Positions 26,595 to 32,150 of a stretch of 64,000 nucleotides of DNA are shown here, piece after piece (the stretch's first letter is position 1; each line of letters opens with the position of its first letter). The stretch is from Flavobacteriales bacterium. Lineage in GTDB: Bacteria > Bacteroidota > Bacteroidia > UBA10329. The translations under genes and the position numbers were made by a program. The notes under the pieces were generated by a model. It was not told the DNA's origin and ran no database searches. It saw nothing but the letters and a program-made list of their open reading frames with translations. Where the stretch lies: contig JAIPBM010000006.1 in assembly GCA_021739695.1 (NCBI GenBank), forward strand, positions 1 through 64,000, in the 5' to 3' direction.

Positions 26595-27956
26595 TTAACC
26601 ACATTCTTTTTCAATGAGCTCCAATCCTTCTCTCACGATCTGCTGAACAGCCGTTTTAGAAGTACAGATATACTCACACAATGCAAAATCCTCGTCATCT
26701 ACTTCGTAAATGCCTAGATTCTCCATCAATTCAATATCACCGATCATAATGGCCTTTACCAAGTGTTGTGGGTAAATATCCATCGGAAACACCGACTCAT
26801 ATTCACCTGTCACAACCAAAGCGCGTGCTTCGCCATTTGTATTCGTATCCAAGTCGTATTTCTTACTTGGCATCAACCATGAGAAATATGATCGAGAAGC
26901 TGAGAACTTTCCAAAACCAGGACCGGCCCAACCTTCCGTAATGAAGAATTTGGCATGATCACCTTCAGGAATAACTGTTACTTCCTTATTGAAAAACCCA
27001 AGGTGTCCATCCGCAGCCACTTTAGTGCCTGTCAAAATGTTACCGCTTATCAATCGGTTGTTGTCTCCTTCCAAATTCCCTTCAACCAGTGTCGAAATAC
27101 TAGCTCCTTGAATGGTTTTGAAATACTTAGGAGATTTAACGGAAGAACCAGCAACAGCAACAGTTCTTGAAGCATCGTATTTACCAGTGAGGAAAGCATT
27201 ACCGATAAGCGCCACATCTTGCGCAGCCACGGTAAACACCACTTCGCCTTTGTTCAATGGTTTGATGTGATGGATCTGAACGCCTACGTTACCTGATGGA
27301 TGTGGTCCGCTGAACCAGTTGATCTGAACGCCTTTTGCTCCTTTGAAAACCTCATCGGTGTTCATTTCGCGGTGCAAATTCAAATGCACAGGACCATCTG
27401 TCAGTTGTTTCAACACCTCCAATCCGGCCTGAAACTCTTTTCCTTTTCCATGCAATACGTAATCGTAATCTGCAGAAAGTGGAGCCGAATCAAATCCGGA
27501 TACATGGATAGAGATCGGATTGTCAGTTGGACGGGCAGCTGTTCCGTACGGACGTCTCTTGATGAATGCCCAAAGGCACTGATCCAACAAACGCTGCTTC
27601 ACTTCTGCTCTACTCATACGAGCTGCATCAGCCGCAGGAAATTGAGCGTAGCGCGTTTCCTTATCGCCAAGCACCTTAATGCCCAGTATCTTGCGTTTGG
27701 CACCGCGCATAACCTCCACTACCTCTCCGCTTACTGGCGATCCCACTTTCACTTCAGGATAATCCTTGCTGTAAAAAAGTGGCGAACCGGCCAATACTTC
27801 CTGTCCTTCCTTCACCAACAATTTGGGTGTGAAATTCTTGAAATCACTCGGTTTGATTACAAACGCACCAGACCTTTCAGCAGTACCTAGCACCTTATCG
27901 GCCTCACCCTTCAGAGGAATGTTCAGGCCTTTCTTGATCTTGATGTCTTTTGACAT
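26595..27956 (-). CDS. nqrA: Na+-translocating NADH:quinone reductase subunit A
   Basis: The 453-residue cytoplasmic subunit begins KDIKIKKGLNIPLKGEAD, with the typical KGLxIPLxG start, and contains PKLLVKEGQEVLAGSPLFY, the HPSGNVGVQIHHI block and the GHLGFFNKEVTVIPEGDHA region. It ends with a Cys-containing tail (CEYICTSKTAVQQIVREGL). NqrA docks on NqrB and takes part in quinone binding. It is the first gene of the operon, with a -7-like box at 27990-27997. Confidence 0.97.
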   Translation of the reverse strand: MSKDIKIKKGLNIPLKGEADKVLGTAERSGAFVIKPSDFKNFTPKLLVKEGQEVLAGSPLFYSKDYPEVKVGSPVSGEVVEVMRGAKRKILGIKVLGDKETRYAQFPAADAARMSRAEVKQRLLDQCLWAFIKRRPYGTAARPTDNPISIHVSGFDSAPLSADYDYVLHGKGKEFQAGLEVLKQLTDGPVHLNLHREMNTDEVFKGAKGVQINWFSGPHPSGNVGVQIHHIKPLNKGEVVFTVAAQDVALIGNAFLTGKYDASRTVAVAGSSVKSPKYFKTIQGASISTLVEGNLEGDNNRLISGNILTGTKVAADGHLGFFNKEVTVIPEGDHAKFFITEGWAGPGFGKFSASRSYFSWLMPSKKYDLDTNTNGEARALVVTGEYESVFPMDIYPQHLVKAIMIGDIELMENLGIYEVDDEDFALCEYICTSKTAVQQIVREGLELIEKECG

Positions 27957-28048: not shown

Positions 28049-28672
28049 ATGGTTCTAAATAAAAAGGGTGGAATCCTTGAAATTATGGTTGACCATAACC
28101 TTGGTTGTTCCTTAGACCAGCAGGTAGTCGCCTACCACCACTATTTCCAACCAAGTGTAGTCGGATTCCCTGATCAAACATTGGCACCAAACACTTGCAG
28201 CGTGCCGTTCCTTAAGCTGACGATCACACCAAACACTTGCAGCGTGTCATTCCTTAAGCTGCCGATCGCACCAAACACTTGCAGCGTGCCATTCCTTAAG
28301 CTGATGATCACACCAAACACTTGCAGCGTGCCGTTCCTTAAGCTGACGATCACACCAAACACTTGCAGCGTGCCGTTCCTTAAGCTGATGATCACACCAA
28401 ACACTTGCAGCGTGCCGTTCCTTAAGCTGACGATCAGACCAAACACTTGCAGCGTGCCGTTCCTTAAGCTGACGATCACACCAAACACTTGCAGCGTGCT
28501 GTTCCTTAAGCTGACGATCAGACCAAACACTTGTGGCGTGGCGTTCCTTAAGCTGACGATCGCACCAAACAACTGTGGCGTGCTGTTCCTTGATCAAGCA
28601 AGGCTGCGCCACCGTTGTGGTGCGCAATTGAGAGGAAATAGCAAACTCAGATGTTCTTCGTCAATGATCTGA
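28049..28672 (+). other. Open frame through the 42-bp repeat; coding status doubtful
   Basis: A 207-codon frame from ATG 28049 runs through the array and reads as 14-residue repeats (TPNTCSVPFLKLTI). Because 42 is a multiple of three, any frame without a stop in the unit stays open; two minus-strand frames are open as well (units SLRNGTLQVFGVIV and QLKERHAASVWCDR). I see no signal peptide, no ribosome-binding clue and no family. The non-repeat head (28049-28185) contains inverted arms CTTGGTTG/CAACCAAG around GGTAG/CTACC, which suggests structure rather than coding. Confidence 0.25.
28186..28594. repeat. 42-bp tandem repeat array, nine full units and one partial
   Basis: Units start at 28186, 28228, 28270, 28312, 28354, 28396, 28438, 28480, 28522 and 28564 (partial). 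Each reads ACCAAACACTTGCAGCG, then TGCCGTTCCTTAAGCTGA, then CGATCAC or a variant. Central copies differ by one to three bases, while the last two diverge more (TTGTGGCGTGG, AACTGTGGCG), as expected for an array that expands and contracts at its middle. TGATCAA occurs at both edges. There are no spacers, so it is not a CRISPR array. Confidence 0.95.
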
Positions 28673-28748
28673 GGGTTGTCTACGCACCATAGGCCTTGTC
28701 AACTATCCAATGGGGGTAAACAGCATAGGGCAAGACATCTGAAACTTG

Positions 28749-28785
28749 AAAAGCGGAGTTCGGCCCATTGCCGAACTCCGCTTTT
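28749..28785. terminator. Strong symmetric terminator hairpin
   Basis: A perfect 16-bp stem (AAAAGCGGAGTTCGGC with its complement) and a five-base loop, with T run on the right and A run on the left. It separates the 42-bp array from the RAYT relic and the REP-flanked gene. Confidence 0.85.
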
Positions 28786-28817
28786 TGTTTGCCGTGGTAG
28801 GTTCATGGTCTTTGGGC

Positions 28818-28892
28818 TTACCTTGCTCTCAGCGTGGCAAAGCTTATGAAGTACAGGCCTTCGGGGTTATGGAACTTGTATTGTGTGCTCAT
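28818..28892 (-). pseudogene. Relic of a REP-associated tyrosine transposase (RAYT, IS200-like), N-terminus only
   Basis: On the minus strand an ATG at 28892 starts STQYKFHNPEGLYFISFAT, which matches the N-terminal start of Bacteroidota Y1-type REP-associated transposases (the part just before the usual WxDVFTR segment). After that Thr, at about codon 20, the homology ends, four unrelated residues follow and a stop is reached at 28818. The HUH and Tyr catalytic motifs are absent, so it cannot be active. It starts 27 bases from the left REP element, the usual place for a RAYT gene. The relic is flanked by an 11-bp direct repeat TCATGGTCTTT (28803-28813 and 28889-28899), which may mark the deletion. 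The family call rests on recall of the N-terminal pattern. Confidence 0.65.
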
Positions 28893-28918
28893 GGTCTTTC
28901 CGAACATGAAAGTTAGAA

Positions 28919-28987
28919 AGATCAGTCAGAGACTGATCGTACTTAATTCCACACAAGAGATCCTGCGGAACTCTTGCGCGAGCGGGG
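28919..28987 (+). repeat. REP-like element, left copy
   Basis: A 69-bp element that occurs again in inverted orientation at 30396-30466. It contains hairpin 1, GATCAGTC-AGA-GACTGATC; a spacer GTACTTAA; hairpin 2, CAAGAG and CTCTTG closing an 11-base segment ATCCTGCGGAA; and the G-rich end GCGCGAGCGGGG. It lies between the RAYT relic and the 3' end of the T9SS gene. Confidence 0.85.
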
Positions 28988-29012
28988 ACTCAATATGTTT
29001 TTGTAGGTACGT

Positions 29013-30377
29013 TCACTCCTTTATCACTTTGAAAGTATGGTGTATTTCATTCTCCACCACCAACTGCCCGAAGTAGATGCCCTTGGCAAAGGCGCTCATA
29101 TCTATGGTTAGCGTGTTGGTGCCATTGGTGGCCGCGCCACCGCCTTGCAGAACCTGCCGCCCATGCACATCATAAAGCTGCAACTGGTAATTGCCATGGC
29201 TTTGGCCTTGCCAAGTGAGGGTGGTGGTTGAGGTGGTGGGGTTGGGGTTGGGGTAGATCAGAATTTCATCTTCCAACTCGCTTACTTCCTCTACTCCGAT
29301 GGGTGGCACCTCATTACATTCAACCGGTTCTCCTTCGTATATCCATTTTCCCAAACGCTGGATGGGTTCCGGACTTGAAAATTCCGAGTTCTTTACTTCG
29401 GTTCCATATAGGTCGCCTTTGAAAACCGAAAGCTGAAAAGGAATGGGACCGTTCGGTAAGACACACCATCGTTGTCCGTTCCATTTGGCAAATCCACTTG
29501 CCGGCATACCATTTACAAATTGGAATCTTCCCGAAACATACAATTCATCTTCAAATACCACGGCATCACCAACAAATGGATTGAGCTGCCCTGTGACTCC
29601 ATCACCAAGCCGCCAATAACGGTCGCCATCCCAAGCAACAATATGGTTGCCAGGATTTCCAAGGTTTTCTTGGAACTCTCCGTATATGTACAGCATGTCC
29701 TTGTACACCGTCAGCCCGCTGACCGCACTGAAGCCACCGAAAAAACCTCCACCTACGTCCTTCCACCCATCAACTGGATTCCATCGGACTATTTCACCCA
29801 TCCCATTGGGCAACAAAATATTACCGCCAACATATAGTTCGTTCTTATACCATATTGCATTATATGGATCAGCAAAACCTACAGAACCATCGGTCAGTGT
29901 ATCTGCAATGCCCGAAAAAGAAACCCCATCATAGAATGCTACAGTATGATACATTTCTCCATTGATCTGTGCACCCAATTCGTACATCAATAGGTATAGC
30001 GAGTCCCCGAACACCGACAACCCTGAGAAATGGCCTTCAACAAGCCTTTCCCATTCTCCATTCTGGTGCTTGTAAATTCCTCCCAATGGATTTCCGGGCA
30101 CATAGACATAAGGGATATCATTAAATAAGGATGGAGCAAATATCTGGTACGAAAACGTGTCAGCTGGAATCGTATCTACAGCGGTTCCATCCCATAAATA
30201 AACACTGTTTGCCCCACCCCCTTCCTGATTCTGACCTGTAATGAGCATATGCTCATCATCAGCAAAAATGTCCAACGAGGAACCTGTTTCGAATCCTGTA
30301 TCTTCCCAATACTGCGCCTTGGTAACATTGAAAATTGCCAAAGCCATGAGTAATGTCGTGCTTCTTCTAATCCTCAT
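29013..30377 (-). CDS. T9SS-sorted secreted beta-propeller protein
   Basis: The 454-residue product has a signal peptide (TLLMALAIFNVTKAQY). The body consists of repeated segments such as AFYDGVSFSGIADTL, IVRWNPVDGWKDVGGGFFGG, HIVAWDGDRYWRLGDGV and GFAKWNGQRWCVLPNG, in which W-D/N-G-x-x-W strands recur about every 45-50 residues, as in kelch-like propellers. The C-terminal about 85 residues (ILIYPNPNPTTSTTTLTW through GIYFGQLVVENEIHHTFKVI) are a T9SS type A sorting domain. It is exactly framed by two inverted REP-like elements, with 25 bases between the left element and its stop and 18 between its start and the right element. Confidence 0.85.
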   Translation of the reverse strand: MRIRRSTTLLMALAIFNVTKAQYWEDTGFETGSSLDIFADDEHMLITGQNQEGGGANSVYLWDGTAVDTIPADTFSYQIFAPSLFNDIPYVYVPGNPLGGIYKHQNGEWERLVEGHFSGLSVFGDSLYLLMYELGAQINGEMYHTVAFYDGVSFSGIADTLTDGSVGFADPYNAIWYKNELYVGGNILLPNGMGEIVRWNPVDGWKDVGGGFFGGFSAVSGLTVYKDMLYIYGEFQENLGNPGNHIVAWDGDRYWRLGDGVTGQLNPFVGDAVVFEDELYVSGRFQFVNGMPASGFAKWNGQRWCVLPNGPIPFQLSVFKGDLYGTEVKNSEFSSPEPIQRLGKWIYEGEPVECNEVPPIGVEEVSELEDEILIYPNPNPTTSTTTLTWQGQSHGNYQLQLYDVHGRQVLQGGGAATNGTNTLTIDMSAFAKGIYFGQLVVENEIHHTFKVIKE

Positions 30378-30395
30378 TCAAAATCAATTTAATGA

Positions 30396-30466
30396 CCCCC
30401 GCTCGCGCAAGACTTCCGCAGGACGTCTTGTGTGGAACCTGGTACGATCAGTCTCCAGACTGATCT
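30396..30466 (-). repeat. REP-like element, right copy (inverted)
   Basis: A 71-bp copy of the element at 28919-28987 in opposite orientation. On the minus strand: GATCAGTCT-GG-AGACTGATC, spacer GTACCAGG, then CAAGAC and GTCTTG closing GTCCTGCGGAA, and GCGCGAGCGGGGG. Relative to the left copy the closing stem pair is C-G instead of G-C, a compensatory change. Confidence 0.85.
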
Positions 30467-30565
30467 CAGTAGCATCCTTCCTATTCAAGCATTCCATTTC
30501 CATTGCCTCAATATCCAATCCGTTCAACTTCCAGCAGGCCCATGCCATCTGCATAGTTCACTGAG

Positions 30566-30772
30566 CTACTGTAAATGTACTGCTTTGGAAATTCCGCTAT
30601 TCAAGTAGGCATCCATGGCTTCTCGCCCACTTTCAACACTTTGCGCCTCAGCCTCATTCCTTACCACCTTCCTTACACTATTTCTCACCCTCCCACGCTT
30701 GGTGCAATTCTTGCACTTCATCAACATCAACAGGCACACAGCCAGCACCACTATCCGCCAACCTAACGCCAC
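30566..30772 (-). CDS. Possible small membrane protein, doubtful
   Basis: A 68-codon frame from GTG 30772 encodes a hydrophobic helix (WRIVVLAVCLLMLM) with basic residues and three cysteines behind it (KCKNCTKRG), then a charged helix. Such a layout is compatible with a real small inner-membrane protein, and AGAGGAGA lies directly before the GTG. There is no recognised family and the neighbourhood is repeat-rich, so chance is quite possible. The remaining non-coding DNA of 30467-30834 shows nothing else I can support. Confidence 0.3.
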   Translation of the reverse strand: MALGWRIVVLAVCLLMLMKCKNCTKRGRVRNSVRKVVRNEAEAQSVESGREAMDAYLNSGISKAVHLQ

Positions 30773-30834
30773 TCTCCTCTAACCTCAGGTCTCACTCAGC
30801 TGAACTCACTGTTCAAATACAAGCACCGCCTCCT

Positions 30835-30842
30835 TATCTTTG
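30835..30842 (+). promoter_or_regulatory. Candidate -7 box of the T9SS plug gene
   Basis: TATCTTTG matches TAnnTTTG and ends nine bases before the ATG at 30852. It overlaps the TTG that would be an alternative start, arguing for the ATG and for a very short leader. Confidence 0.5.
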
Positions 30843-30851
30843 CCACCCGAT

Positions 30852-32150
30852 ATGCGCACAACGATCACGTTTTTCCTTCTCACCTTTTTCCTTTTTTCAC
30901 ACGCCTCTTTCGCTCAAGATGACGAATATTTTGATGACACCTTTGTGCGCTACGAAGACCGAGTTTACCAGAACAGCATCAAAACAGTCCAGTTCAATGT
31001 CAAGAACGTAGACCTCAGCCTCCCCGTGGTGCAGCTGGGAGGAGGCGAAATGCTCGAACTCTCCTTCGATGACCTCGATGCAGAATACCAGGATTACACC
31101 TACACCATCATCCACTGCGATAGGAACTGGAAAGAAACCGGCATCCCATCTTCAGAATACATCGATGGATTCTTGGAAATGAACATCTCCAACTACGAAT
31201 TCTCCTTCAATACCGTTCAACGATACCTCCACTACTCCTTCAGTTTTCCCAATCAGAATTTCAGCTTTAAACTCTCAGGAAATTACATCCTGCTTGTCTA
31301 CAAAGACTTCAACCGCGAAAAGCCCATCATCACCCGAAGGTTCCGCGTTTACGAAAACCTGATTCAGATAGAAGCTGCCGTTCGTCTGCCTATGGAAATA
31401 AGTAAACGCCAAACCCATCATCAGGTTGATGTGGTGGTAAACTATCCCGACTACGACATTCAGAATCCCTTCCAAAACATTGCCCTACATGTTCAGCAGA
31501 ATTACCGATGGGATAACATGAAAACAGACATGCAGCCCATTTTCGTCAAAAACGGACAGCTCATTTACGACAACATGGGAGGCGTCACCTTTGAAGGAAG
31601 CAACGAATACCGTTGGATAGACACCCGAAGTCTGCGCTACCAGCCAGAGAATGTAAGCGCCATCTGGTACGACCCAGACTCCCTCAAAAACCACGTCTTT
31701 CTAATGCCCGATAAGGTTTTCAATAAAGACCACTACGTGAGCACTCCCGATATTAATGGAGCTTATTCCATCGGCATCCGCGAAGGAAACGACCCCAACC
31801 GCGATGCAGATTACGTCCTCGTTCATTTCATGTTAAAATACGATGAGCCCCTTACATCTGGTGGTCTCTATCTTTTCGGTGGACTGACCGAATGGCAGAT
31901 CCAACCCAAATACCGCTTGGATTACAGCTACCGCGATGGGGTTTACGAATGCACCGCCTACCTCAAGCAAGGCTATTACAACTACCAATACATCTACCTG
32001 AAGGATGGCGAAACAGTGGGCGAAACAGAGGTGACCGAAGGTTCCTTCTACGCAGCCCGCCAGATCTATACCTTCTATATCTACTACCAACTGATGAGTT
32101 CAAGATACGACCGACTGATCGGTCATTCCATCATCACATCTCATTTTTGA
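30852..32150 (+). CDS. Type IX secretion system plug protein (DUF5103 family)
   Basis: From ATG 30852 the 432-residue product begins RTTITFFLLTFFLFSHASFAQ, a signal peptide. The mature protein matches the T9SS plug family: YQNSIKTVQFNVKNVDLSLPVV, LELSFDDLDAEYQDYTYTIIHC (seen as LSFDDLDAEYQDYTY), IDGFLEMNISNYEFSFNT, and the C-terminal YDEPLTSGGLYLFGGLTEW and YLKQGYYNYQYIYL. In established T9SS biology the Plug occupies the periplasmic side of the SprA translocon channel, while PorV holds it in the other complex. Several T9SS clients are encoded in this window (13284, 29013, 32617, 50309). A 57-base gap precedes apaG. Confidence 0.88.
   Translation: MRTTITFFLLTFFLFSHASFAQDDEYFDDTFVRYEDRVYQNSIKTVQFNVKNVDLSLPVVQLGGGEMLELSFDDLDAEYQDYTYTIIHCDRNWKETGIPSSEYIDGFLEMNISNYEFSFNTVQRYLHYSFSFPNQNFSFKLSGNYILLVYKDFNREKPIITRRFRVYENLIQIEAAVRLPMEISKRQTHHQVDVVVNYPDYDIQNPFQNIALHVQQNYRWDNMKTDMQPIFVKNGQLIYDNMGGVTFEGSNEYRWIDTRSLRYQPENVSAIWYDPDSLKNHVFLMPDKVFNKDHYVSTPDINGAYSIGIREGNDPNRDADYVLVHFMLKYDEPLTSGGLYLFGGLTEWQIQPKYRLDYSYRDGVYECTAYLKQGYYNYQYIYLKDGETVGETEVTEGSFYAARQIYTFYIYYQLMSSRYDRLIGHSIITSHF

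Follow-up and report, generated by a model that had tools for sequence, protein, structure and literature searches.

A T9SS gene between two inverted REPs

The window analyzed here (the whole 64,000-nucleotide stretch of a Flavobacteriales contig) contains an intact gene for a secreted protein carrying a type IX secretion system (T9SS) sorting domain. This gene is closely framed by two REP elements in opposite orientation, and together they lie between nqrA and a T9SS plug gene. The features of the locus are as follows.

26595..27956, minus strand: nqrA (NF003761), left border gene of the empty site
28066..30834, no strand: lineage-specific insertion of 2.77 kb between nqrA and the T9SS plug gene
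28185..28591, no strand: 42-bp tandem array inside the insertion, 9.7 copies
28750..28788, no strand: terminator-like hairpin AAAGCGGAGTTCGGC...GCCGAACTCCGCTTT
28918..28987, plus strand: left REP (covariance model, 95.8 bits, E 2.3e-22; sequence, alignment, and folding)
28920-28927/28931-28938, plus strand: hairpin 1 stems of the left REP
28954-28959/28971-28976, inner 28961-28963/28967-28969, plus strand: hairpin 2 stems of the left REP
28977-28987, plus strand: tail of the left REP, CGCGAGCGGGG, facing the T9SS stop codon
29013..30377, minus strand: secreted-protein (T9SS) gene, 454 residues, intact; signal-peptide-like N terminus and T9SS type A sorting domain (Por_Secre_tail, PF18962, TIGR04183)
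30397..30467, minus strand, inverted relative to the left REP: right REP (covariance model, 87.9 bits, E 2.3e-20; sequence, alignment, and folding), its tail facing the T9SS start codon
30465-30458/30453-30446, minus strand: hairpin 1 stems of the right REP
30430-30425/30413-30408, minus strand: hairpin 2 stems of the right REP
30840..32150, plus strand: T9SS plug protein gene (NF052315), right border of the empty site

Homology to congener G002 ends at 28065 and restarts at 30835, and the intervening 2.77 kb are therefore specific to the lineage of the window. This insertion comprises the 42-bp array, both REPs, the T9SS gene, and two pieces of a transposase gene described below. In G002 and G005, nqrA and the plug gene are adjacent, with 190 to 230 bp between them, of which approximately 75 to 170 bp are unmatched; in G004, the two genes are on separate contigs. 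These two relatives thus offer an empty site, with neither the gene nor the REPs, a comparison that a preliminary description of this DNA had pointed to, and no relative was found to carry the T9SS gene at the same place without the elements. No ortholog of the gene was found in congeners. Its best match is a paralog in its own genome (C6:119191), which is 41% identical over part of the length and has no REPs nearby, and no second REP-framed copy was found. A target duplication was rejected, as the two ends of the insertion share no word of 8 bp or more.

The 42-bp array is open in several reading frames, with a related array on contig C154 of G002 and a short match on contig C22 of G003. In G002, the array lies downstream of a block consisting of a RAYT (REP-associated tyrosine transposase) tail, a REP, and a different T9SS gene, which is followed by a hairpin similar to the terminator-like one in the window. 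All of these lie in a 3.6-kb island (L206, 3564-7148) located beside a tRNA-Arg gene and flanked by exact 45-bp direct repeats that include the tRNA 3′ end; no integrase was seen in it.

A covarying family of two-hairpin REPs

The REP matches in the window are not due to chance. The two copies are 88% complementary over 59 nt and, as the preliminary description had reported, each has two hairpins, with 25 bp separating the stop codon from the left REP and 18 to 19 bp separating the right REP from the ATG. DNA folding returned exactly these two hairpins for each REP (left, −12.9 kcal/mol, z −3.2; right, −13.5 kcal/mol, z −1.7). The hairpin 1 stem, GATCAGTC/GACTGATC, is common to both copies and intact despite different loops (AGA on the left and TGGA on the right). 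For hairpin 2, the outer stem is CAAGAG/CTCTTG in the left copy and CAAGAC/GTCTTG in the right one, i.e., a two-sided change from AG/CT to AC/GT, and the inner TCC-TGC-GGA is identical. The compensatory pair noted previously is thus real, yet that account omitted an additional A/G difference at a single base before the loop. According to simple arithmetic (10 strong copies in 4.24 Mb), random placement would yield approximately 0.03 REP pairs spaced 1.5 kb or less. The pairing itself therefore calls for an explanation, and the transposase remnants described below supply one.

A search of the genome and its relatives for the 70-bp element, as originally proposed, revealed further copies in both. 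In the genome carrying the window, blastn found nine REP places and the covariance model found 13 matches at an E value of ≤0.01, 10 of them strong (E < 1e-6). Each of the five congeners covered by the model contained 2 to 14 matches. By blastn, REPs were detected in all congeners searched except one, and outside the genus a single weak match was obtained among 50 genomes. Two variants in the window's own genome (L008, 1501-1595; L009, 627-709) have an extra segment inserted in hairpin 2, with a TGAGCTTGTCGAAGC-type motif. It is the tail, and not hairpin 1, that abuts neighboring genes; in at least nine copies in the genus, it lies 1 to 25 bp past a stop codon and points toward it. Neither hairpin carries a GTAG/GTGG foot tetranucleotide in the alignment of 26 copies (A3), which sets this family apart from canonical GTAG REPs.

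This alignment covers 17 base pairs, or 442 pair cells, 96.4% of which are paired. Two-sided changes occur at 9 of the 17 base pairs and in 48 cells, compared to 14.9 in shuffles and no more than 7 in slid controls. Given that a one-sided wobble change was seen in only one of the 442 cells, paired changes dominate the family. The near absence of wobble intermediates suggests that the two arms change jointly, either by DNA-level selection or by template switching. In palindromic DNA, template-switch correction during replication also generates paired changes, and covariation alone is consequently no proof of selection on the fold. The pattern fits a DNA hairpin substrate, yet a maintained palindrome is more safely established by it than selection on a fold. 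The covariation is family-wide and not peculiar to the copies beside the T9SS gene.

RAYT genes, their remnants, and units in other genera

Three congeners (G004, G007, and G008) carry an intact RAYT gene, encoding 184 residues, between REPs of the window family. The upstream REP is inverted and the downstream REP lies in the direction of the gene, with the tails outward; these inverted flanks are clear in G008 and G007, whereas in G004 the upstream REP is heavily degraded. The protein reaches 101 bits with NCBIfam model NF047646 (REP-associated tyrosine transposase; cutoff, 80) and also matches PF01797, whereas it scores only 28 bits with the IS200-type model NF033573, below the cutoff of 55. 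Its HuH motif is NHAH in G004 and G008 and NHVH in G007, and it lies approximately 83 residues from the tyrosine of a YIHNNP motif; the tail contains a conserved SS. The assignment of the repeats to a RAYT-type REP family, already advanced in the preliminary description, is borne out by these flanks together with the further copies and the covariation.

No intact Y1 transposase or RAYT gene was found in the genome carrying the window (98.5% complete), which has fragments only. A Pfam search for Y1_Tnp alone overlooked these fragments, and a protein search with the congener RAYT recovered them. With the intact protein as the query, two pieces were found in the window and nowhere else in this genome. 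Both lie just outside the REPs and had been missed previously.

28830..28892, minus strand: RAYT remnant, codons 1 to 21 (MSTQYKFHNPEGLYFISFAT), beside the left REP on its outer side (tblastn E 4e-9; genome search 1.1e-6)
30511..30600, stop codon 30508-30510, minus strand: RAYT remnant, codons 155 to 184, beside the right REP on its outer side (tblastn E 1e-12; genome search 1.7e-10)

Read in the direction of RAYT, the locus runs C terminus, REP, T9SS gene, REP, and N terminus, an “inside-out” arrangement that reverses the normal unit. The remnant of codons 1 to 21 is identical to the intact G004 gene at 62 of 63 nt (98%) and that of codons 155 to 184 at 80 of 90 nt (89%). By comparison, nqrA is only 78% identical between the same two genomes, and 53% at third codon positions. 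RAYT thus spread after the species split and has a common ancestor much younger than that of the genomes. Other RAYT end fragments were found beside single REPs in G003 (codons 1 to 20), in G002 (last 51 codons), and elsewhere in the window's own genome (G000:C4, last few codons).

A scan of reference genomes yielded 294 RAYT relatives, 80 of which were kept. Among the Bacteroidota RAYT loci tested, a flank repeat was common to the upstream and downstream sides in 40 of 47, mostly inverted. Recurrent units and internally deleted copies were noted at the loci listed below.

L153, 3404-4116 and 4904-5616; L167, 4844-5639 and 6863-7657; L148, 4904-5616: RAYT units of Pedobacter and Brumimicrobium, 97 to 99% identical
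L235 and L236; G061:C2:42843-45295 and 358416-368486: MITE-like copies of Pedobacter sp. Leaf176

Pedobacter zeae has two 713-bp units that are 97% identical, and Brumimicrobium salinarum has two of approximately 790 bp that are 99% identical. The unit common to P. zeae and P. psychrodurus is 97.8% identical, compared to 84% for another segment common to the same loci. Overall, the Pedobacter and Brumimicrobium units are 94 to 99% identical at unrelated sites, and their homology stops at the C4/G4 REP tails. Among the pairs of full units that were compared, identity just inside the tails is 0.90 to 1.00; just outside, it drops to 0.45 to 0.65 (random mean, 0.53). Such near-identical, sharp-ended copies at unrelated sites were seen in Pedobacter, Brumimicrobium, and one Sphingobacteriaceae MAG. 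In addition, Pedobacter sp. Leaf176 carries five internally deleted, MITE-like copies sharing one junction, in which the 5′ REP is joined to the last part of RAYT and the 3′ REP; three of them form a cluster, perhaps by tandem duplication, but the flanks of the remaining two are unrelated. A second deletion type is represented by two further copies, and all deleted copies are on the same strand. In all of the full-length units and MITE-like copies that were compared, the tails point outward. Judging from these sequence comparisons, the Pedobacter and Brumimicrobium units appear to move as whole, sharply bounded elements. The evidence for whole-unit mobility thus comes from other genera; in the genus of the window, the comparison covered RAYT identity, which exceeds the genome background.

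Seven of the 80 loci have another RAYT copy or fragment no more than 5 kb away, in all cases on the same strand. These tandem loci are the best parallels for the architecture of the window, i.e., a gene between same-strand RAYT units. At several loci (L153, L154, L167, G008:C22 [L082], and G002:C1 [L027]), RAYT units or REPs occur among RHS-tip and small toxin/immunity-type genes, recognized by eye, and might therefore help to shuffle such arrays. Within the genus, approximately five of six REPs at a RAYT 3′ end are closely followed by a secreted-type gene. A general link between RAYT units and secreted genes was rejected: across approximately 75 Bacteroidota RAYT loci, a signal-peptide rule selected 13 of 43 downstream same-strand genes and 94 of 377 controls, and there is therefore no general enrichment.

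Origin of the framing and relation to known systems

Each REP of the window probably formed the hairpin end of a RAYT unit that has since decayed, two units of the same orientation having come to lie beside the T9SS gene before their far parts were lost. Because a RAYT piece adjoins the outer side of both REPs, both are ends of RAYT units, each probably of its own, with the gene between the facing ends, and the REP orientation around the intact congener RAYTs agrees with that predicted from the remnants. The intact unit, or REPtron, reads tail-REP(inverted)-RAYT-REP-tail, with RAYT inside and the G/C-rich tails as the outer ends. Two such units would have arrived 25 bp past the stop codon and 18 to 19 bp ahead of the start, in either order. 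Both would then have decayed from their outer sides, so that the 5′ RAYT end survives from one unit and the 3′ end from its partner. At numerous other sites, too, REP tails are found close to gene ends, so the close framing could have arisen without a shared event. Binding and cleavage of single-stranded REPs by RAYT have been demonstrated for Escherichia coli, Stenotrophomonas, and Marinomonas (PMC8266576), and by analogy the RAYT of the window family would be a HuH/Tyr single-strand nuclease recognizing folded REP DNA. Such recognition is the proposed reason for the conservation of the REP fold, and the constraint would relax once RAYT is lost.

Two separate insertions are most likely, as opposed to one rearranged unit. 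No congener was found in which both units are intact around a gene; with the outer halves gone, the case for two units rests on one 5′ and one 3′ end, and rearrangement of a single unit could yield both of these as well. A circle or tandem duplication (RAYT, REPs, and T9SS gene) opened or cut inside RAYT would leave C- and N-terminal pieces on either side of the gene. The remnants are indeed complementary, non-overlapping gene ends on the same strand, and recombination between tandem same-strand RAYTs, which exist elsewhere, would yield such a circle. We nevertheless regard this permutation as unlikely, as the remnants diverge unequally from the G004 gene and RAYT ends next to lone REPs are frequent in the genus, so that independent decay suffices.

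It is very unlikely that the hairpins were retained to regulate the T9SS gene, i.e., as a 3′-end stabilizer or terminator and a 5′ barrier. E. coli REPs have established 3′-end roles, the family's tails recur just past stop codons in the genus, and the 5′ REP must sit in the leader of the gene, as 18 to 19 bp is too short for a promoter. However, the gene and its REPs are limited to one lineage, and conservation hence lends no support; the RAYT remnants already account for the REP placement, and the covariation extends well beyond this gene. Least probable of all is mobilization by RAYT in trans of the cassette envisaged in the preliminary description, REP-gene-REP as one unit: it would fit the joint absence of the gene and both REPs from the empty sites and a similar inward-facing pair around a small ORF at G008:C22, but the RAYT pieces lie outside both REPs, the gene's paralog stands without REPs, and the tails face the T9SS gene, contrary to their orientation in all units that show signs of mobility.

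A broader and more tentative reading is conceivable, though unlikely: RAYT/REP units of this subclass (2.6; see below) could be active or recently active transposons that move whole and as MITE-like copies, with same-strand pairs bracketing, and perhaps mobilizing or exchanging, accessory genes (secreted T9SS and toxin/immunity types) in the manner of composite transposons, the window being a decayed example. According to PMC8049555, RAYTs are domesticated transposases that are single-copy and inherited vertically. The Bacteroidota units depart from this pattern in being multicopy, bounded exactly by REP tails, and accompanied by deletion derivatives with a common junction, and at the sequence level these features argue for a mobile variant of REP/RAYT. 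If confirmed, the group would represent an extant intermediate linking insertion sequences to domesticated REP/RAYT systems, making the origin of REPs and REPINs testable, and the window would illustrate the end state, in which RAYT is lost and REPs remain around a lineage-specific gene.

These units share a Y1 HuH transposase and subterminal hairpins with IS200/IS605 elements, as well as whole-unit copies with sharp ends in the relatives. They differ in a tyrosine motif with NP (Y---Q in IS200 TnpA), in the REP_Tyr_transpos call, and in ends formed by an inverted REP pair; no tnpB was seen. Like REPINs and BIMEs, the REPs are short non-autonomous palindromic repeats depending on RAYT. However, REPINs are close inverted REP pairs, whereas here most copies are single 70-bp two-hairpin REPs and the two REPs of the window are separated by 1.4 kb, their tails facing each other. 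TIRYT/TIRtron elements (Di Nocera et al. 2013, PMC3733652) likewise have a RAYT-like gene bounded by inverted repeats with a GGGG motif, but theirs are plain terminal inverted repeats and not full two-hairpin REPs of a multicopy family.

The closest fit is TnpAREP/RAYT subclass 2.6 (Quentin et al. 2018), which corresponds to group 5 of Bertels et al. 2017 as given in PMC6006769, an assignment made by motif, length, and spacing. In Bacteroidetes, atypical non-GTAG secondary structures with further genomic copies flank the tnpAREP genes of this subclass (PMC6006769), and the window family is thus a further instance and not a novel type. The congener RAYTs agree with the subclass in their Bacteroidota host, length (184 residues; median, 179), tyrosine motif (YIH[QN]NP), HuH-to-Tyr spacing (median, 82), SS in the tail, and atypical flanking structures repeated in the genome. 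The subclass HuH motif NH[LIV]H fits G007 but not the NHAH of G004 and G008. The pair of covarying hairpins that each REP has here, and its conserved tail of the GCGCGAGCGGGG type, were not seen in the main text of that paper. Finally, the paper states in general that unit-wise transposition of REPtrons does not occur, whereas the REPtrons of Pedobacter and Brumimicrobium look mobile.
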